Assembly: GCA_025358455.1 (NCBI GenBank)
Contig: JANYJP010000080.1
Span: 1 to 62,515 of the forward strand
Length of the DNA stretch: 62,515 bases
Direction of reading: 5' to 3'
Source of the DNA: Bacteroidales bacterium
GTDB lineage: Bacteria > Bacteroidota > Bacteroidia > Bacteroidales > VadinHA17
The translations under genes and the position numbers were made by a program. Each line of letters starts with the position of its first letter. Position 1 is the first letter of the stretch. This document shows, in pieces, positions 252 through 21,007 of the stretch. The notes below the pieces were generated by a model. The model had not been told where the DNA came from. It did not search any database and was given only the letters and a program-made list of their open reading frames with translations.

Positions 252-2150
252 TTAAATTTTTGCCAGCTCTTTTATAGCTGTTACCTGCTTACTTCTATTT
301 ATTTTTACAGCCGGATATATCAGAGCTTCAGCAACAATTTCCGAAATGTCGGCTACTTTTGTTTCTGTAGCTGAAGAGAATGTCTTTTTGCAAAGAGGAC
401 ATGCAGTAGCAAGCATATCAGGATTAGCTTTTGTTAATTCTGCTGCAGTATCACAGGCTATTTTATGTTTTTTCTGATAACTTATTTTCATATTAGCCAG
501 GCTGCCTCCGCAACAGAGTGAATTTTCATCTTCAAACTTACTTTTTTCAAGCCTCACTACATGACTTAATACATCTTTTGGTTCATCATAAACACCCGAT
601 CCTCGTCCCAGTTCGCAGGGCGAATGATACACAACTCTTTTGCGTAAAAAGTTCATTTTTACCGAACCATCATCAATAAGCATTTTAATAAACTGGGTAT
701 GATGAAGCACCTCTACATCGAGATAATAACTCTCTTTGAACACTTTATAACAAATCGGACATGAGGTAACAAGAGTGTGTGCACCTGATTTCCAGATCAT
801 CTGTGAATTATAATTAATAAGCTCTCTTGCTTCCTTATCCTGCCCGGCCAGCATAAGAGGCCGTCCGCAACATACACCTCCCTGTTCATCAATAAAACTG
901 TAATTTACCCCTGAAGCATCAAGGATTTTTACCATTGAGTTTTTAATGGCCGGTGTCAGGTGAGTCATGCAACCGGCAAAGAACACGACATCAACCTTTT
1001 TAGGTTCATTTTCAGGAAGAAAATTATAAGCAGACGGTACATTAACTTCTTCTGCTGTAAAGTTCTGGCGGGTTCTGAAATATCCTTTATAAATGTTCCT
1101 TATATCATTTTCAGCTTCTGCACCTCTTCTCTGTATCATCCTGATTGGAGAAAGCTCTATTCCCACCGGACATTTCTGATCGCATCTGCCACACATCAGG
1201 CAATTATGAGCAATTTCAGAAACGTCATCATTATTACGGATAGCTTTCATCAGATAAGCCGACTGTATATTATTGACACCAGCTGAAAAATTGAGCTGGC
1301 ACGCATCTATGCATATACCGCATGATGAACAGGCATAAGTCTGTACTTCAGTATAAGAACCTGCCTTGTCACCTGTTCTGATTCCGGAATTCCTCATAAA
1401 TATCAGGAATAATTCTGTTGGAATATGCATGTATCTGGTTATCGGAAGAAGAACAAAAAAAGTACCAAGTGAGAGTGAATAAAGCCACCAGAAAGGATAA
1501 GCCATCTGCTGGGCCGGAAGGAATGAAGCCAGCCATGAACCTAGTGAACCTGTCAGAAAACTGCCTGTTCCATACGCGCCGCTCGTAAAACTTTCCGCAA
1601 GCAACCGACTTGGAAAGATCAGCCATAAGGAAGTAAGTGCGATTTTATCGGTAAGCTTCAAATGTGTTGTTTTTTTCATTCCGACTACTTTGGAATAGAA
1701 TCTTTTAGTTACGGCAAGAACCAAACCCGACAGTATAAAGGCAAGTATCAGATCCATTAAGAAACCATACGCCGCTTCAAATCCCATTCTTCCATGTTCA
1801 GGATTAAAAAACCTGAAGAAGATTGCTTTGTATGGGGCATTCAGATGTTTCGCGCCAAAAATATCGGCCTCAATTGTCCCGAAAAATATAAGTAAGAACC
1901 ATCCGAATGCGAGACTCATATGCATATAACCAAGTCGTAAATTTGTCTTCAGTATCTTTCTGTGTATGAGGCTTTCAAGAAATATCTCCTTAAGACTGAG
2001 TACGAATGGTCTTCCAAAGAATCCTCTTTGCAATCTCAGTTTATCAGGACGTGACAGGTCACGAAACCAGATGAGGCTCCTTATAACAACGTAAATGATT
2101 ATAAAGTATAATCCTATATCGAAAGGAATTATGAAAGGATCAAATTGCAT
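252..2150 (-). CDS. membrane-anchored Hdr-like protein: cytochrome-b-like domain fused to HdrD-type iron-sulfur module
   Basis: The 632-residue product probably exchanges electrons between the Hdr-like complex and the quinone pool. Residues 1-255 carry several membrane segments of NarI/HdrE type, with H77 and H242 in or beside membrane helices as possible heme ligands. Two [4Fe-4S] motifs follow (C274, C277, C280, C284 and C317, C320, C323, C327), then two complete CCG domains (C394, C427-C428, C464, C467 and C512, C546-C547, plus a CxxC near 584-587). CCG pairs hold noncubane clusters in HdrB/HdrD. The layout matches an HdrE-HdrD fusion and resembles FadF-like and EMO-type quinone-linked oxidoreductases. 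It is last in the five-gene operon and its start overlaps the preceding gene by 11 bases. It occupies the place held by HdrB2 in sHdr operons. Domain assignment is firm; substrate is inferred. Confidence 0.85.
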   Translation of the reverse strand: MQFDPFIIPFDIGLYFIIIYVVIRSLIWFRDLSRPDKLRLQRGFFGRPFVLSLKEIFLESLIHRKILKTNLRLGYMHMSLAFGWFLLIFFGTIEADIFGAKHLNAPYKAIFFRFFNPEHGRMGFEAAYGFLMDLILAFILSGLVLAVTKRFYSKVVGMKKTTHLKLTDKIALTSLWLIFPSRLLAESFTSGAYGTGSFLTGSLGSWLASFLPAQQMAYPFWWLYSLSLGTFFVLLPITRYMHIPTELFLIFMRNSGIRTGDKAGSYTEVQTYACSSCGICIDACQLNFSAGVNNIQSAYLMKAIRNNDDVSEIAHNCLMCGRCDQKCPVGIELSPIRMIQRRGAEAENDIRNIYKGYFRTRQNFTAEEVNVPSAYNFLPENEPKKVDVVFFAGCMTHLTPAIKNSMVKILDASGVNYSFIDEQGGVCCGRPLMLAGQDKEARELINYNSQMIWKSGAHTLVTSCPICYKVFKESYYLDVEVLHHTQFIKMLIDDGSVKMNFLRKRVVYHSPCELGRGSGVYDEPKDVLSHVVRLEKSKFEDENSLCCGGSLANMKISYQKKHKIACDTAAELTKANPDMLATACPLCKKTFSSATETKVADISEIVAEALIYPAVKINRSKQVTAIKELAKI

Positions 2151-2484
2151 ACCCGTCTGTTAATTGAAAGGCCTTTTTAGCCAGTGATACAATATTTCTT
2201 GTATTTACTCCGCGGGGACAAACCAGTGTACATTTTCCACATAGCATACATTTCCCTATACTCTCCCTGACCTGGTCATTTTCACCCCGTTTGATCAATA
2301 TATTAAGTTCCCTCAGACTAAATTTTGTAAGGTTTCCGGTTGTACATGTTGCGGAACAACCACCACATTCAATACATAATCTGAAGCTTGGTTCTCTTTC
2401 AAAAATATAAGCTGCTATGCTCCTGTCGTTGGAATCATAGTCGATCTGACGTCCTTTTGATATTGTAAATCCGAATTTTCCCAT
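2140..2484 (-). CDS. HdrC-like [4Fe-4S] dicluster protein (HdrC2 position)
   Basis: This is a 114-residue soluble ferredoxin-like subunit. It has two classic cluster motifs, CIECGGCSATC near residues 37-47 and CMLCGKCTLVCP near 79-90, spaced as in HdrC, and no membrane segment. In Hdr complexes HdrC wires the flavin subunit HdrA to the CCG subunit. The gene sits one base after hdrA and overlaps the following membrane fusion gene by 11 bases, which implies translational coupling. It is shorter than typical HdrC (about 180 residues) and begins only about 35 residues before the first cysteine. The position directly after hdrA matches HdrC2 of sulfur-oxidation-type Hdr operons. Confidence 0.8.
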   Translation of the reverse strand: MGKFGFTISKGRQIDYDSNDRSIAAYIFEREPSFRLCIECGGCSATCTTGNLTKFSLRELNILIKRGENDQVRESIGKCMLCGKCTLVCPRGVNTRNIVSLAKKAFQLTDGYAI

Positions 2485-2485
2485 T

Positions 2486-3514
2486 TTACTTTCTGTCGTC
2501 TTTCAGATATTCCATCACCTCCGAAACTGCTGCCCTCGCATGCGAGATCGTTTCAGTGATATTCATCGGAGCAGTACAGGTACCTGCATAAAAAACTCCC
2601 TCAACATTGCTTACATTGCTACCAAAATGGTGGTCAGCAGCTGCAAAAAACTTATTTTCACCAGTGTTAAGACCTCCCAACGCGGCAATCTTTTTACCAC
2701 CTTCCGACATTTCCATACCAGCCATCAGCACAAGCATATCCAGTTCCATTTTGAGGGGTCTTCCTGCAAGTGTATCTTCAACTTTGATTACCAGCTTGTT
2801 ATCAAAAGACTCCCCTGCCTCGGATACTTTGCCCCTGATGAAACTTACCCCCCATTTTTCCTGAGCCTCACGATAAAGTTCTTCATAATAAGCTCCGCCC
2901 ATTCTCATATCCATATAGAAGCAAAATACTTTTGATTCAGGAAGATATTCCCTGATCTCAATCGCCTGTTTTACTGCAGTAACGCAACATAATTTTGAAC
3001 AATAAAGATTCCCCACTTTCTCATCACGCGACCCAACGCAATGGACAATTCCTATTTTTTCAGGCTCTTTCCCGTTTACCAGTGCTATATTATTCTTCCA
3101 AAACATCTCCTCAAGTTCAGCTGAAGTAATAACATTATCATAGATGCCATATCCATACTCTTCTTTCCTTGAACTTTTAAAAAGATCAAATCCGGTAGCA
3201 ACAATTACTGCATCAGCAACCAGTTCCTCACCATTATTGGTTAAAATTGTAAGATTTGTTTTATTCCTCGAAAACTTTTCAATTGTAGTATTGGTAAGTA
3301 ATTTAACCTGACCATTAATAGAAATTCTGTCGAGGTATTCATTTACCTCAGAACTACTCCTCCTGTCGGGAAAAAGCTTATACCAGTTATTCAGATGTCC
3401 CCCGGTTTTGTCTTCCTTCTCTAATAAACTAACCTCAAAACCGACCTTCGATAACCTGCCTGCAGCTTCAAGCCCCGCGACACCACCTCCAATTACTACA
3501 ACATGTTTACTCAT
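2486..3514 (-). CDS. HdrA-like FAD-dependent subunit (short form)
   Basis: The 342-residue flavoprotein would be the electron-branching core of the Hdr-like complex. It opens with a Rossmann FAD motif (VVIGGGVAGLEAA). Near residue 170 it has the HdrA/QmoA cysteine motif YCSKLCCVTAVKQA, which binds a [4Fe-4S] cluster in characterised HdrA. The C-terminal part contains a GVFYAGTCTAPMNI segment like the second FAD-contact loop of the family. It lacks the extra ferredoxin domains of methanogen HdrA (about 650 residues) and so matches the short QmoA/sHdrA class. It lies between hdrB1 (6-base gap) and hdrC2 (1-base gap), so the genes are almost certainly cotranscribed. Confidence 0.85.
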   Translation of the reverse strand: MSKHVVVIGGGVAGLEAAGRLSKVGFEVSLLEKEDKTGGHLNNWYKLFPDRRSSSEVNEYLDRISINGQVKLLTNTTIEKFSRNKTNLTILTNNGEELVADAVIVATGFDLFKSSRKEEYGYGIYDNVITSAELEEMFWKNNIALVNGKEPEKIGIVHCVGSRDEKVGNLYCSKLCCVTAVKQAIEIREYLPESKVFCFYMDMRMGGAYYEELYREAQEKWGVSFIRGKVSEAGESFDNKLVIKVEDTLAGRPLKMELDMLVLMAGMEMSEGGKKIAALGGLNTGENKFFAAADHHFGSNVSNVEGVFYAGTCTAPMNITETISHARAAVSEVMEYLKDDRK

Positions 3515-3520
3515 TTACAA

Positions 3521-4582
3521 TCAAACATTTATCAAGTTATGGTTTTTTGAGTATTCAACATTAATCTTGGTATTGTACTTATCTTCCGGTGAGTATTCGA
3601 TACCAATCTTATCGAGTACCGGTTCACAATCGGTCTGATGCATTTGAAGACCTAAATCCCACGGATTATAACCAAGTACCAGGCCTGCCACTTCCTCGTA
3701 AGTAAAGACAGGAATGCCTTCGCCATTCTGTCCATATCTCTTACCTTCCATTTCATTTATTACATATTGCCACCTGTCTAGAAACATTGGACAGCCGGGA
3801 CAGTTAGTAATAATCATATCAGGTTTATAGGGTTTCATTGATTCGAATTTCTCTTTTGAACAGGCAATGGAAAAGCCTCTGTTAGCCTGCACCAGGTATT
3901 GCCTGAATCCGAAACCGCAGCAATGACGACGCTCCGGATAATCAATAATTTGTCCACCCCATTCTTCAATCATACCTGTAAGAACAAAAGGATATTCAGC
4001 TCCGCCAACACCTTTTGAAGGAAACATCTTGGCATAATGGCAACCAATATGATCAACAACTTTTAATGGTTCACCTGTATTCTTGTTTATAAGCTTGAAT
4101 TTCGCTTTTGCTGCAATTTCTTTTCTGAATTTATAGATAACATCACTGGCGTGGGCAAGGTTTTTCGGTTTATTAAATTCCCTGCCTGTAGCTTTTTTGA
4201 GCTGTACCCTGATTTTTTCTTCGATTTCAGGGAAATGATGCCAGGTGTCGAGGATTTCAGTATACAATCCAAAAGATGTGATACACGATGGAAGAAGGTT
4301 TTCATAACCTGCCTCAGTCATAATGGCAAACTGACGGGCAACAATGGTCATGGTAGTCTCAACGGGAACAATATCACTATGGTAGCCTATGCCAGAACAG
4401 CTGGTATGGCATGGGTGTTCATAGACATCCTTCTTAAGCTCTTCACGCATAATCTTAAGAAATGCTGTTTCTGAACCGGGAAAGAAATTTTGACGGACGC
4501 AGCTTCTTACATAATAGTATTTATCATCAGCTATTTCCTTCTGGTAATCTTTCCAGATTGCCTTTTTCCCTTCGATGTTCAT
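3521..4582 (-). CDS. HdrB-like CCG-domain subunit (HdrB1 position)
   Basis: The 353-residue product has two cysteine-rich halves. The second is a standard CCG domain: HIGCHYAKMFP, then RRHCCGFGFRQ, then NCPGCPMFLDRWQ. The first half has CVRQNFFPGSE, HPCHTSCSGIGYH and LPSCITSFG, with the cysteines rearranged relative to a textbook CCG domain. HdrB subunits bind two noncubane [4Fe-4S] clusters that cleave or form disulfides in heterodisulfide reductase. There are no membrane segments. It follows hdrC1 by 12 bases and precedes hdrA by 6, as HdrB1 does in sHdr operons. The natural substrate (persulfide, disulfide or carrier-bound sulfur) cannot be read from sequence. Confidence 0.82.
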   Translation of the reverse strand: MNIEGKKAIWKDYQKEIADDKYYYVRSCVRQNFFPGSETAFLKIMREELKKDVYEHPCHTSCSGIGYHSDIVPVETTMTIVARQFAIMTEAGYENLLPSCITSFGLYTEILDTWHHFPEIEEKIRVQLKKATGREFNKPKNLAHASDVIYKFRKEIAAKAKFKLINKNTGEPLKVVDHIGCHYAKMFPSKGVGGAEYPFVLTGMIEEWGGQIIDYPERRHCCGFGFRQYLVQANRGFSIACSKEKFESMKPYKPDMIITNCPGCPMFLDRWQYVINEMEGKRYGQNGEGIPVFTYEEVAGLVLGYNPWDLGLQMHQTDCEPVLDKIGIEYSPEDKYNTKINVEYSKNHNLINV

Positions 4583-4594
4583 CTATTGAAAATA

Positions 4595-5302
4595 TTATCT
4601 TGTATGATTACCGCTATCTGTTTTATAAATATGCCTGAAGTACTCATTATCAATACCTTCGTCCAGCTCCATATTTAACTCTTTAGCTTTCTTCTTTGAA
4701 AATTCTTCAATATCTTCAAATCTTTTCATTCCCCCGGTAAGCTCAAAGATTTGCTTTATTTCATCCATTGCTTCTTTCGGGATTTTCCGCAGAATTCCCG
4801 GTCCGTCGCCTTTATAATTTGCTCCCATTTTTTTAAATAGAGGGGTCCAGTTATCCTGAATCCAGTCCCAGACCGGTCCCTGTTCGGGATGCAGATCCGT
4901 ACCGACTCCTTCAAGATAAAGACAGTATCCATGTTCGAGCATCCAATGACCAACTGTTCTCTTAAGAGCAAGTTGTTGCCTCCCTTTCTCAGATTCAACA
5001 AAATATCCAAGATCCTGTGAAAGAGATCGTAATGCCATAATAATCAAACCTGGTGCATTTCCGCGCGGACAGCGTGTCTTGCATGACATACATTCCCCGC
5101 AATACCAGATTGTATCAGATTTCAAAAGTTCTTCAATATCAGCATCATTCTTTGACTGAACTGTGTCAACTATTTTACGGGGATCGTAGATATAAAATTC
5201 AGCAGCAGGACAGATAGCTGTACAGACTCCGCAATTCATGCATGCATTCAGGCCCTCTTCAAATCTGATATCCTTTAAAAGTAAATCGTACAGCTTTTCC
5301 AT
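4595..5302 (-). CDS. HdrC-like iron-sulfur subunit (HdrC1 position), first gene of the Hdr operon
   Basis: The 235-residue product has an N-terminal dicluster ferredoxin domain, with motifs CMNCGVCTAICP near residues 21-32 and CGECMSCKTRCP near 68-79. A long C-terminal alpha-helical region contains conserved-looking WMLEHGYCLYL and WDWIQDNWTPLF stretches. Long-tailed HdrC1 of this kind opens sHdr operons, whose order hdrC1-hdrB1-hdrA-hdrC2 is reproduced here. The upstream region carries a -7-like box and a palindrome immediately before the start, so this is the promoter-proximal gene. Confidence 0.82.
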   Translation of the reverse strand: MEKLYDLLLKDIRFEEGLNACMNCGVCTAICPAAEFYIYDPRKIVDTVQSKNDADIEELLKSDTIWYCGECMSCKTRCPRGNAPGLIIMALRSLSQDLGYFVESEKGRQQLALKRTVGHWMLEHGYCLYLEGVGTDLHPEQGPVWDWIQDNWTPLFKKMGANYKGDGPGILRKIPKEAMDEIKQIFELTGGMKRFEDIEEFSKKKAKELNMELDEGIDNEYFRHIYKTDSGNHTR

Positions 5303-11615: not shown

Positions 11616-12183
11616 CATGTCAGCTACTTCACGACGGCTTAGAGGTATCTGAAATTTTGTACTGGAAAACAACCCGTGAAAAATAAAGTAACATGTCAGC
11701 AATACGGCCATAGGTCTTCTTATTGCTCTGCGCTATAAACCTGTGAAAACTTGAAAGACTCTCCCGGCCTACTGATGTAAGAATTTCAAATGCAAAAGTT
11801 CCGTTGCTTTTAACCATTGCAGTAAAGACATCAATATCGATATAACAGACTTTCAGATCAGTAAGTGCCGAATAGGAATAATGGTTTATATTGTCACCAA
11901 ATAATGAGGTCAGACCAAGGTATGAATGGGGCAGAATTATCTGAATGATCTGCTCTTTATTATCCGGCTTGATAAGGTATTCTTTTACCAGCCCAGATCT
12001 TAGGTAAATAATATGAGAATTCGGGGAACCAGAATTTAGGATATTAGTCTTGCGCTTTATTTCGCTGCGATACCTGTTGTTCGTAATTAAATCCAACTCT
12101 TCGTTTCCAAGCTTTTCAGTAGCACAAGACTTATCAAGACAATCCTGGCACCGGGAATTTTTAGAGTTTGATTCTTTAACCAT
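11616..12183 (-). pseudogene. Crp/Fnr-family regulator with frameshifted, truncated HTH
   Basis: The open frame (11629-12183, 184 residues) encodes a cyclic-nucleotide-binding-like beta-barrel and dimer helix, with an N-terminal cysteine group CQDCLDKSC and the phrase RIADMLLYFSRVVFQ that normally leads into the HTH. The frame then ends after nine unrelated residues. Shifting frame at the CAG codon restores STKFQIPLSRREVADM (about 11616-11654), which is the start of a Crp/Fnr helix-turn-helix. The simplest reading is loss of two bases from CAGAGTACA. Beyond ADM no recognition helix is found in any frame. The gene therefore looks unable to make a DNA-binding protein, although its promoter region is intact. 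A sequencing error could explain the shift but not the missing recognition helix. Confidence 0.75.
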
Positions 12184-12443: not shown

Positions 12444-13676
12444 ATGAAAAAACTATTAATTCTGGGTGCCGGTACGGCAGGAACGATGATGGCAAATAAG
12501 ATGAGGAAAGATCTGCTTCCCAAAGAATGGAATATTACAGTTATTGAAAAAGAAAAGGATCATTTTTATCAACCCGGATTTTTATTTGTTCCTTTCGGAT
12601 ATTCGAGCCGGAAAGATATTATGAAACCCGGTCAAAAGTTTTTCGCTGGCGGAATTGATATAGTATACAAGGAAATTGACAGGATTGAATCAGATAATAA
12701 CAGGGTTTTCCTGAAAGATGAAACCTGCTTTGATTATGACATTTTAATAATTGCTACCGGTACACGTATAAGTCCCGAAGACACACCTGGCCTTAAAGGA
12801 GAATTGTGGTATAAAAACGTTTTTGATTTTTATACAATTGAAGGTGCTGAAGCGCTTGCACGATTCTTCTCTACCTGGGAAGGAGGTAATCTGGTAGTTA
12901 ATATTGCTGATAATCCTATCAAGTGCCCTGTTGCGCCTCTCGAATTTGCATTTTATGCTGACGATTATTTTACAAAAAAAGGAATTCGGGATAAGGTAAA
13001 TATTACATATGTTACCCCGATGTCAGGAGCATTTACAAAGCCAAAAGCCTCAAAGATGCTAGGCTCTCTGCTGCAAAGAAAAAATGTAAATATTGTAACA
13101 GATTTTTTCCTTGGAGAAGTTGATAATGTTAATAAAAAGATTCTTGATTTCGGAGGACGTGAAGTACCATTCGATTGTTTAATAACAATTCCGCTTCATT
13201 CAGGCGATCCTGTTATTTCAAAAAGCGGATTGGGAGATGAATTTGGATTTGTCAGAGCCGATAAGAATACCCTCCAGTCGACCAGTAAACAGAATATTTT
13301 CGTTATTGGTGATGCTGGTAATTTTCCATCATCAAAGGCTGGTTCCGTTGCTCATTTTCAGGCAGAGGTACTGCATGCAAATCTGCTAAGTTTTATAAAT
13401 AACAGGCCACTTGAAGCTAAGTTTGACGGGCATTCAAATTGCTATATTGAAACAGGATACGGAAAAGGAATTCTCATTGACTTCAACTATACCACCGAAC
13501 CTTTACCCGGGATGTTCCCATTAGCTTTATTTGGGCCGTTTGCTTTGCTTAAGGAAACCAGACTCAATCACATTGGTAAACTTTTCTTTAAATGGATCTA
13601 TTGGAATATATTGTTAAAGGGAAGAAAATTACCGGTAAGTAACCAAATGTCTATGTCAGGAAAAATCACAGATTAA
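12444..13676 (+). CDS. sulfide:quinone oxidoreductase-like flavoprotein
   Basis: The 410-residue product has an N-terminal FAD motif (ILGAGTAGTMMANKM), the ATG motif IIATGTRISPED, and the FAD-binding FVIGDAGNFPSSKAG near residue 288. Two cysteines sit where redox cysteines of SQR-type enzymes lie: C161 in IKCPVAPLEFAF and C333 in HSNCYIETGYGKG, the latter resembling the TSCPLVTGY loop of human-type SQOR. A C-terminal aromatic amphipathic stretch (KLFFKWIYWNILLKG) suits monotopic membrane attachment. SQR oxidizes sulfide to persulfide or polysulfide and reduces quinone. The following TusE-like and DsrE2-like genes support a sulfur role. A non-SQR member of the same NDH-2/SQR superfamily remains possible. 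Confidence 0.75.
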   Translation: MKKLLILGAGTAGTMMANKMRKDLLPKEWNITVIEKEKDHFYQPGFLFVPFGYSSRKDIMKPGQKFFAGGIDIVYKEIDRIESDNNRVFLKDETCFDYDILIIATGTRISPEDTPGLKGELWYKNVFDFYTIEGAEALARFFSTWEGGNLVVNIADNPIKCPVAPLEFAFYADDYFTKKGIRDKVNITYVTPMSGAFTKPKASKMLGSLLQRKNVNIVTDFFLGEVDNVNKKILDFGGREVPFDCLITIPLHSGDPVISKSGLGDEFGFVRADKNTLQSTSKQNIFVIGDAGNFPSSKAGSVAHFQAEVLHANLLSFINNRPLEAKFDGHSNCYIETGYGKGILIDFNYTTEPLPGMFPLALFGPFALLKETRLNHIGKLFFKWIYWNILLKGRKLPVSNQMSMSGKITD

Positions 13677-13730: not shown

Positions 13731-14042
13731 ATGTCACAAAAAACTTATGCAGGTATTACAGTAGATGTAAATGAGGAAGGTTATTTTACAAACTCTTCCC
13801 AGTGGTCCAAGGAAATTGCACTTGAGATTGCAAAAGAAGAAGGTGTTGTTCTGACTGATCAGCATTATGCTATTATGGAATTTCTTCGCAACAGGTTCAA
13901 GAGTGGAGAACCGCTTTCGATCAGAAGTATTAACCATTCCAATGTTATAGATGTCAAAACTTTCTATCAGCTTTTCCCAGGTGCCCCTCTTAAAAAGGCC
14001 ACCAAAATAGCAGGTATTCCAAAACCGGCAAGTTGTATCTAA
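13731..14042 (+). CDS. TusE/DsrC-family sulfur carrier with one C-terminal cysteine
   Basis: The 103-residue product matches TusE/DsrC throughout: an early DVNEEGYF strand, a central helix YAIMEFLRNRFKSG, and the mobile arm KIAGIPKPASCI. The penultimate residue C102 is the conserved sulfur-carrying cysteine (CysA). The second cysteine of true DsrC, 11 residues earlier, is threonine here (T91), so the protein cannot form the DsrC intramolecular disulfide and is of the TusE or DsrC-like type. It is 54 bases downstream of the SQR-like gene and 19 before the DsrE2-like gene. The TusBCD partners of tRNA thiolation are not in the window. Confidence 0.88.
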   Translation: MSQKTYAGITVDVNEEGYFTNSSQWSKEIALEIAKEEGVVLTDQHYAIMEFLRNRFKSGEPLSIRSINHSNVIDVKTFYQLFPGAPLKKATKIAGIPKPASCI

Positions 14043-14061: not shown

Positions 14062-14565
14062 ATGACCACTGAACAAAATTACCCGATCAAAAAAGTCAAT
14101 CTCATTTGTGCCAAAGGTGCAATTGAAGATGTTTATGCAACACTCGTCATGGGAAACGGTGCAGTTATGGAAGGTATAGAGACCAACATTTTCTTTACTT
14201 TTTTCGGACTCGACGCCATTGTTAAAAGCAGAATGGACAAACTGCATACCGCCATTGTGGGAAATGCGGCTTTGAGGCTCCCGGGCGGTTTAAGAATGCC
14301 TACGCTTCTTGGAGTTATTCCGGGAATGGAGTCATTCACGTCCTGGATGATGAAAAGCCAGATGGAAAAACTTGATATACCACCTGTAAGCGAATTCCTT
14401 GACCTTATAAAAGCCGGAGGAGGAAATATCTATGCATGCAAACTAGCCATGGATATGTTCAAGTTCAGGAAAGAAGATCTGTCAGAGCATGTAAGCGGTG
14501 TTCTTACCATTGGCGAGTTTTATGAACACGCGGGAGGAGAAGGTTCTCAGATTATATTTACCTAG
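14062..14565 (+). CDS. DsrE2-like sulfur-transfer protein
   Basis: The 167-residue product begins with a DsrE-fold strand and loop (KVNLICAKGAIEDVYATL), continues with FFTFFGLDAI, and has a central methionine-rich segment with MMKSQMEKL. The likely persulfide cysteine is C126 in IYACKLAMDMFKF; the ACxxxMD context is typical of the DsrE2 class. C16 near the N terminus is a second cysteine. DsrE-type proteins pass sulfane sulfur between carriers such as TusA, TusE and rhodaneses. The gene closes the SQR-TusE-DsrE2 operon and is followed by a strong hairpin terminator. Confidence 0.8.
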   Translation: MTTEQNYPIKKVNLICAKGAIEDVYATLVMGNGAVMEGIETNIFFTFFGLDAIVKSRMDKLHTAIVGNAALRLPGGLRMPTLLGVIPGMESFTSWMMKSQMEKLDIPPVSEFLDLIKAGGGNIYACKLAMDMFKFRKEDLSEHVSGVLTIGEFYEHAGGEGSQIIFT

Positions 14566-20461: not shown

Positions 20462-21007
20462 CTATTTTGAAGAAATCCACGCAATTACTTTATCAGATGT
20501 TGGCTTGTCTTTTGAATAAATAACATCTACCAGTTTCCCGTTTTCATCAATGAGATATTTCTGGAAATTCCATTTAACTTCTGAATCCATTACTCCGTTT
20601 TTCTCTTTTGAGGTCAGCCACTTATAAATCGGCGCCATGTCGTCTCCTTTAACTGAAATTTTTGCCATCATTGGAAATTTAATTCCATAATTCTCTGTGC
20701 AAAATTTTCTGATCTCAGCAGATGTTCCTGGTTCCTGGCTTGCAAAGTTATTGGCAGGAAACCCTATAATTATAAGATTATCCTGGTATTTTTCATAAAC
20801 CTCTTCCAGATCTTTATATTGTGGAGTAAAACCACATTTGGAAGCAGTATTCACAATCATTATCTTCTTTCCCTTAAGAGTGCTGAAATCAAAATCTCCA
20901 CCCTCAAGTGTTTTAACCTTAAAATCATAGATACTGCCAGTCTGGCTAAAGCTTGTAAGTGAAATTGCCATGAATAAAAATATTAAGCTCAGTTTATTTG
21001 TTTTCAT
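20462..21007 (-). CDS. exported glutathione-peroxidase-family thiol peroxidase
   Basis: The 181-residue product has a signal peptide (cleavage near SFSQT), so it acts in the periplasm. The GPx catalytic set is complete: peroxidatic C58 in NTASKCGFTPQY, Q91 in NNFASQEPG, and the Trp-Asn pair in VKWNFQKYL. A second cysteine C103 (KFCTENYGIKFP) aligns with the resolving cysteine of thioredoxin-dependent GPx enzymes, so thioredoxin-like reductants are more likely than glutathione. It detoxifies hydrogen or lipid peroxides. It is a single gene divergent from the CAP-domain gene. Confidence 0.93.
   Translation of the reverse strand: MKTNKLSLIFLFMAISLTSFSQTGSIYDFKVKTLEGGDFDFSTLKGKKIMIVNTASKCGFTPQYKDLEEVYEKYQDNLIIIGFPANNFASQEPGTSAEIRKFCTENYGIKFPMMAKISVKGDDMAPIYKWLTSKEKNGVMDSEVKWNFQKYLIDENGKLVDVIYSKDKPTSDKVIAWISSK

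Follow-up and report, generated by a model that had tools for sequence, protein, structure and literature searches.

A conserved five-gene heterodisulfide reductase-like unit of Bacteroidales with kinship to sulfur-oxidation-type Hdr

What might a set of heterodisulfide reductase (Hdr) genes, arranged much as in the sHdr operons of sulfur oxidizers, be doing in a member of the Bacteroidales? The question is raised by a stretch of 62,515 nucleotides from a Bacteroidales bacterium (GenBank assembly GCA_025358455.1, contig JANYJP010000080.1), called here the window. The window is the entire contig C103 of a genome of 3.4 Mb in 142 contigs (G000); the view to the left ends at base 1, and family searches covered most window genes up to base 21007. 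At positions 252-5302 five minus-strand open reading frames, hdrC1-B1-A-C2-D, are packed as a single unit, and our analysis addressed their conservation, their relatives and the electron path which they might serve.

Organization and conservation of the five-gene unit

The unit begins with an hdrC1-like gene (4595..5302, minus strand, as are all five) encoding an HdrC-type protein of 235 residues with two 4Fe-4S motifs. It is followed by an hdrB1-like gene (3521..4582, 353 residues), whose HdrB-type product has an altered N-terminal CCG motif and an intact C-terminal one and would carry the proposed substrate site, and by a short hdrA (2486..3514, 342 residues) with flavin adenine dinucleotide (FAD) and one 4Fe-4S motif and no ferredoxin inserts. 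An hdrC2-like gene for a small dicluster ferredoxin (2140..2484, 114 residues) and gene D (252..2150, 632 residues), a cytochrome-b/HdrD fusion with a membrane part, two 4Fe-4S motifs and two intact CCG motifs, complete the set. By their coordinates, C1 and B1 are separated by 12 bases, B1 and A by 6 and A and C2 by 1, and C2 overlaps D by 11. CCG, Fer4 and FAD/NAD-binding domains were detected by Pfam in the five proteins, and in NCBIfam C1, B1, A and C2 matched Hdr models best and D matched TfrB, in each case under the curated cut-off.

HdrB1 relatives were sought among named bacterial and archaeal genomes, and the best 80 of 339 were kept; by tblastn, the full C1-B-A-C2-D order is present in 73 of these 80 loci; six others are cut by contig ends, and one (L114) holds C1-B only. 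With 73 of 80 loci complete, the order is not a matter of chance. An earlier note on this DNA had described five tightly packed minus-strand genes in the order HdrC1, HdrB1, short HdrA, HdrC2 and membrane HdrD, and the reading frame coordinates, the protein families and the named loci bear this description out. According to the record titles, the loci belong to Bacteroidota groups and include animal-gut Bacteroidales, e.g., Alistipes and Butyricimonas; L090, L113 and L137 are titled otherwise and were taken for mislabelled or mixed metagenome-assembled genomes. Almost all of the loci come from metagenome-assembled genomes. Clustering of neighbours in 81 loci (the 80 named loci and the first 20 kb of the window) revealed no sixth widely shared family, the next commonest being present in 15 of the 81. 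Pfam labels of neighbours were assigned on representatives and extended to other loci by sequence similarity.

Within the order sample, 61 of 149 genomes gave a match, 50 of them strongly (at least 59% identity; G307 and G357 are fragments among the 50). At the level of the phylum, 79 of 296 genomes matched at E 0.001, with identities, besides G000, of at most 32% among the matches listed. The 55 regions fetched around HdrB matches in order genomes comprised 41 complete units, three that were cut, two without a usable HdrB and nine incomplete inside. Atypical arrangements are represented by G375, with C1-C2-D ahead of B-A, and by G296 and G414, with B-A only. In L192, L200, L206, L215, L218, L220 and L221, hdrC1 is preceded in the same orientation by a gene pair for a histidine kinase and a LuxR-type response regulator, with one frame between in L200 and L221; in L210 the pair is divergent (Pfam-checked in L192 only). 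This pair is a possible clue to the inducing signal.

Neither the conserved unit nor the annotated window genes, most of them up to base 21007, include Mvh, Flox or EtfAB (electron transfer flavoprotein, ETF) genes, in agreement with the earlier note. Elsewhere in G000 there are a Flox-HdrABC-like cluster on contig C56, the label Flox being our reading, and EtfBA on contig C66, which adjoins a split EtfD-like pair of its own, apart from D. EtfA/EtfB-like frames (24-33% identity) were found in 4 of the 81 loci (L059, L060, L062 and L063), about 5 to 8 kb upstream of hdrC1 and on the opposite strand, one of 646 residues matching both proteins; the 55 order loci contain none near hdr. EtfA was dropped as a discriminating partner because it is near-universal (135 of 149 order genomes).

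Relationship to sHdr and cofactor motifs

PMC11582611 describes type I sHdr as shdrC1B1AHC2B2 and type II as shdrC1B1AHB3 with etfAB in one cluster. The Bacteroidales C1-B1-A-C2-D unit fits neither core cluster. Its HdrA matches the sHdrA structure 6tjr, which we take to be that of Hyphomicrobium denitrificans, over residues 3-332 (E 1.5e-61). In the HdrA tree (41 rows), sHdrA of types I and II, the Picosynechococcus protein and the Bacteroidales proteins form one clade (97/95), in which the latter two stand together (99/95); outside it are HdrA of the Qmo-like, Flox-type and methanogen groups. The HdrB1 tree places the Bacteroidales and Picosynechococcus proteins, two type II sHdr sequences and an A. 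ferrooxidans plasmid protein on one side (100/100), opposite methanogen HdrB, Flox-type HdrB, SdhE and B2; because several long branches meet in this tree, the order within the B1 clade was not used. Thus both proteins, which the earlier note had proposed to compare with sHdr, Qmo and methanogen Hdr, fall with sHdr, and the clustering with EtfAB- or Flox-linked Hdr that it had named as contrary evidence was seen in neither tree.

The cysteine pattern of HdrB1 was compared in an alignment of 33 sequences (A3). The altered N-terminal CCG motif retains C28, C62 and C100 next to an invariant S103, and the intact C-terminal motif comprises C181, C221-C222, C261 and C264. The signature (K/R)SC..(Q/H)T(S/T)C..CxTS(F/Y) is common to HdrB1 and sHdrB1. 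The C-terminal motif reads CPGC in Bacteroidales and Picosynechococcus, but the type II and A. ferrooxidans sequences have DTGC in its place. The structure model of HdrB1 reached a predicted local distance difference test score (pLDDT) of 81.5. We are highly confident of the five-gene architecture and the sHdr kinship taken jointly.

In the membrane subunit D, residues H77 and H242, the eight ferredoxin cysteines and the CCG cysteines are invariant among 40 aligned sequences (A1), and C464 is nearly so. H77 and H242, proposed from the alignment as heme ligands, share columns with histidines of EtfD-like proteins. The AlphaFold2 model of D (pLDDT 87.4) has mycobacterial EtfD (9ojn, E 4.6e-20) as its best PDB fold match, and D combines, as HdrDE and EtfD modules do, a cytochrome b bearing two candidate heme histidines with an HdrD-type iron-sulfur part. 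EtfD, as described in PMC13083937, holds its b heme by His78 and His241 and passes electrons to menaquinone; it has Thr539 where Hdr has a cysteine, and its second cluster is completed by His583, which renders both clusters non-catalytic. At these two positions D has the invariant residues Cys428 and Ile466 instead, and therefore looks HdrD-like and not EtfD-like. D thus resembles HdrD in its iron-sulfur part and EtfD/HdrE in its membrane part. The EtfD-like protein on C66 of G000 has the EtfD pattern (CTG, CPHC) with the CCG cysteines otherwise kept; in the EtfD-like proteins next to type II sHdr, the first CCG motif is gone and the second is without its last cysteine.

The lipoate-binding protein LbpA is called inevitably linked to sHdr in PMC6067878, and is said to accompany it with very few exceptions in PMC10332631. 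Across the 81 and 55 hdr loci, no match was found to two LbpA queries or to the 251-residue H of L259, and none to soluble B2/B3 beyond D, the HdrC proteins and one weak frame in L085. This frame of 431 residues, weakly B3-like, lies downstream of the hdr operon at L085 16445-18685 together with a DsrC-family frame (30% to the window DsrC). Type II clusters do occur in another class of the same phylum (L259 and L260), where DsrE, LbpA, C1, B1, A, B3, EtfB, EtfA and an EtfD-like gene stand together, L259 having additionally the 251-residue gene between A and B3. The B3 label is our reading of Fer4 and CCG at the B3 position, and the LbpA proteins of both clusters are GcvH-family by NCBIfam, one of the two over the cut-off, with extra cysteines seen.

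A GcvH-family match was present in 133 of the 149 order genomes (86 with a single one, by our count) and in 46 of the 50 Hdr-positive genomes; it was absent about equally from Hdr-positive (4 of 50) and Hdr-negative genomes (12 of 99). The four Hdr-positive genomes without a match at E 0.001 (G299, G313, G342 and G417) are drafts of 94-99% completeness, in which one missing GcvH could be an artefact and four are less likely to be. None of the 30 best-scoring GcvH loci, six of them from Hdr-positive genomes, showed the LbpA-type C-terminal CxxC end of L259 and L260, and three (L145, L154 and L167) have a cysteine near the end. GcvH-like domains were also seen inside proteins of 245-590 residues in G000 and other order genomes, that of G000 (L263 1-1549) near a frame with a CxxCH motif.

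As regards the sHdr-like reading of the earlier note, the family kinship stands on the trees and the HdrB1 motif, but a standard sHdr was not found, LbpA and EtfAB being absent from the cluster and a membrane cytochrome-b/HdrD arm present.

Sulfur genes, proposed electron path and rival explanations

About 7 kb from hdr, outside the conserved unit, the window carries three plus-strand genes for a type III sulfide:quinone reductase (SQR) family protein (12444..13676, 410 residues; NF049943 at 618 bits against a cut-off of 525), a DsrC/TusE family sulfur relay protein with the penultimate cysteine only (13731..14042, 103 residues) and a DsrE2-like protein (14062..14565, 167 residues; PF13686 over and NF047629 under the cut-off). 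Divergent from the SQR gene lies a minus-strand gene for a cNMP-binding, Crp/Fnr-type regulator (11629..12183; PF00027). The trio was found again in L060 and L063, and L074 has SQR with a cut DsrC. In G319 a full operon is placed after DsrE-TusA-FlpD-Qmo-like genes and before a Cys/Met pyridoxal-phosphate (PLP) enzyme. In G000 a TusA match lies in a 215-residue frame beside an AIR-synthase family gene, which we read as selD, and because of this neighbour it is probably not a sulfur-oxidation gene. DsrC with both redox cysteines was observed in L268, L270 and L271 (Hdr-positive G414, G329 and G442), on contigs other than those of hdr.

Runs of YeeE/YedE, TusA, rhodanese and DsrE genes occur in order genomes (L170, L175, L176, L177 and L178) and are similar to the YTD cluster, which has been proposed to serve sulfur disproportionation; FlpD and Qmo-like genes follow the runs in L170, L175 and L178, and contig ends cut L176 and L177 short. 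The labels QmoA and QmoB are our reading of HdrA2 matches under the cut-off, and QmoC matches were likewise under it. Among the phyla studied in PMC12998232, YTD is reported to be complete only in Desulfobacterota and Nitrospirota.

Seven copies of C1-B stand without A, C2 and D (G321b, G349, G368b, G374b, G384, G389b and G423b); the region of G389b ends 3.1 kb past B, and in G321b a frame of 743 residues lies between C1 and B. In five of the seven genomes a further HdrB copy is accompanied by all or most of the operon. Six of the orphans group with 100/98 in the HdrB tree, and all seven only weakly (82/61). G349, G368b, G374b, G389b and G423b adjoin some of DUF134, Nitro_FeMo-Co, a ParA/NUBPL-type ATPase, OsmC and a Cys/Met PLP enzyme, a set reminiscent of the orange-protein (Orp) locus; G321b adjoins a Crp-TusA-YeeE-rhodanese-DsrE-TusA-FlpD-Qmo-like run. 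The orphan hdrC1-B pairs with DUF134/Nitro_FeMo-Co-type neighbours are loci L171, L174, L202, L208 and L211. The orphans look as if C1-B were a separable catalytic module.

The most likely role of the unit is the passage of thiol or sulfane electrons from HdrB1 to menaquinone, and we infer that the five proteins form one complex and, with it, its electron path, direction and sulfur substrate. HdrB1, the proposed catalytic subunit in sHdr, would take a thiol or protein-bound sulfane sulfur. On the simplest cofactor path its electrons would pass to the ferredoxin HdrC1, the FAD/4Fe-4S flavoprotein HdrA, HdrC2, the HdrD part of D and its b heme, where menaquinone would be reduced. In the sHdr redox model of Ernst et al. 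(2021), the second arm (C2B2 or B3) reportedly hands electrons to lipoate/NAD or EtfAB. The small ferredoxin and the cytochrome-b/HdrD fusion may stand in for this arm; with electrons leaving by a quinone arm, and not by the LbpA/NAD or EtfAB arm, LbpA would no longer be needed, which would explain its absence. For the mechanism as a whole, a membrane-bound, LbpA-free, menaquinone-linked sister of sHdr, we see about an even chance. More tentatively, and rather doubtful in our estimate, the unit could represent a third sulfur-type Hdr architecture, LbpA-free and menaquinone-linked, by which anaerobic and gut Bacteroidales would oxidize small thiols or protein-bound sulfane sulfur, and whose separable C1-B1 catalytic module would dock to HdrA-C2-D or to Qmo.

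Several observations weigh against a sulfur-oxidizing sister of sHdr. SQR occurs in 3 of the 80 named loci, many of which have flanks too short to show it. Queries for TusA, FlpD, Qmo, YeeE, rhodanese and Cys/Met-lyase gave 0 of 81 loci in a blastp search at E 1e-6, which also missed the window's own divergent DsrE2. Across the 149 order genomes (50 Hdr-positive versus 99, relatedness uncorrected), co-occurrence of Hdr was not significant with DsrC (18/50 versus 25/99, p 0.18), with any TusA-domain protein (22/50 versus 42/99, p 0.86) or with standalone TusA (14/50 versus 16/99, p 0.13). Lithotrophic sulfur oxidation is not an obvious lifestyle for gut carriers such as Alistipes and Butyricimonas. 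Type I sHdrA is represented in the HdrA tree by a single sequence and type II by two, and the HdrB tree has no type I sHdrB1, its sHdr side being represented by two type II sequences and the A. ferrooxidans plasmid HdrB-like protein. DsrC, present in 43 of the 149 genomes, is unsupported as a general partner (p 0.18), and a sulfur-gene neighbourhood was rejected as a general rule by the 0 of 81 loci together with the non-significant co-occurrence. The correlation with sulfur-carrier genes, whose lack the earlier note had named as contrary evidence, gives a mixed picture, with physical links in the window and some relatives but no significant order-wide co-occurrence.

The same complex might run in reverse, like methanogen HdrDE: menaquinol would reduce, at HdrD and/or HdrB1, a disulfide or sulfane carrier, and fermenting anaerobes would thereby have an electron sink or a thiol-redox system. 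In favour of this, the two CCG motifs of D are both of the catalytic type, record titles place several carriers in anoxic or gut samples, and 8 of the 81 loci have a glutathione-peroxidase family gene at a distance of one or two genes upstream of hdrC1. Against it, the closest kin of HdrA and HdrB1 is the oxidative sHdr family, and the neighbouring SQR belongs to a quinone-reducing one; we regard this direction as unlikely. The same low standing is given to a general Qmo- or EtfD-like bridge that would bring electrons to menaquinone from a soluble donor (a flavin, ferredoxin or protein), with no sulfur substrate and with the CCG clusters as wires. Such a bridge would accord with the want of a universal linked sulfur-carrier gene and of significant co-occurrence, with EtfA/EtfB-like frames 5 to 8 kb off in 4 of 81 loci, and with EtfD as a CCG protein that serves as a non-catalytic wire (PMC13083937). 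It agrees less well with the sHdrB1 signature in HdrB1 and with D, which is without the catalysis-blocking residues present in the C66 EtfD-like protein of the same genome.

Gene order, kinship and the GcvH-family gene of 46 of 50 Hdr-positive genomes would also suit a true LbpA-dependent sHdr whose lbpA lies elsewhere in the genome. This we consider very improbable, given the four Hdr-positive genomes without a GcvH match, the 0 of 81 and 0 of 55 loci with LbpA and the missing CxxC end in the 30 best-scoring GcvH loci. Equally hard to credit is a Flox-, Mvh- or Etf-type bifurcating HdrABC: HdrABC homology speaks for it, but the HdrA is short and without ferredoxin inserts, it falls outside Flox-type, Qmo and methanogen HdrA, and G000 keeps Flox-Hdr-like and Etf-EtfD clusters separately.

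Whichever function applies, a conserved respiratory-type gene set is present in about one third of the order genomes (50 of 149), and no assigned function turned up in the searches made. No report of sHdr with heterodisulfide reductase in Bacteroidetes was found in the open-licence PMC literature, and no description of the Bacteroidales five-gene unit in the titles and abstract openings among the matches listed there or in passages of PMC10266427, PMC6742706, PMC12345210, PMC13384644 and PMC6085437. PMC12345210 kept only six ordered sHdr subunits with identities of at least 40%, and would thus miss the Bacteroidales form. If sulfur or thiol electrons do enter menaquinone, anaerobic and gut Bacteroidales would have an added sulfur-redox route, the sHdr catalytic core would work without lipoate-binding proteins, and the unit could serve as a comparison system for the roles of HdrB1 versus LbpA.

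Comparison with known systems

Type I sHdr shares with the Bacteroidales unit the C1-B1-A order and a short HdrA of the same clade (97/95, one type I sequence), a comparison that covered gene order and HdrA; the Bacteroidales unit differs in having no hyp gene, no LbpA and no soluble B2, and an HdrD-cytochrome b fusion instead. Type II sHdr, as in G005 and G087, resembles it in the HdrB1 signature, the HdrA clade and a cytochrome-b/CCG membrane protein in the cluster, but it possesses LbpA, DsrE, B3 and EtfAB, and most of the CCG cysteines of D are gone from its membrane protein. The plasmid cluster of Picosynechococcus PCC 7003 (L138) has C1, B1 and A in the same order and 49, 40 and 46% identical (C1 over 206 columns of comparison with the window protein), followed not by C2-D but by soluble C2-B2 and an SQR-related flavoprotein (under cut-off); no LbpA was found in the 29 kb shown around it, and it is possibly a cyanobacterial counterpart.

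Mycobacterial EtfD (9ojn) and methanogen HdrDE are like D in joining a cytochrome b to an HdrD-type iron-sulfur part. EtfD differs from D in its non-catalytic clusters and is described as serving ETF, and methanogen HdrDE is not known to have an HdrA or HdrB1 partner. QmoABC likewise ties an HdrA-type flavoprotein to a quinone-reactive membrane subunit, but it has no HdrB and a different HdrA clade, the Bacteroidales HdrA belonging to neither the QmoA nor the QmoB clade. Flox/Mvh-HdrABC systems are marked by a long HdrA clade with MvhD and by Flox or Mvh genes, whereas the Bacteroidales unit combines its short HdrA with HdrB1, HdrC2 and the membrane fusion D.

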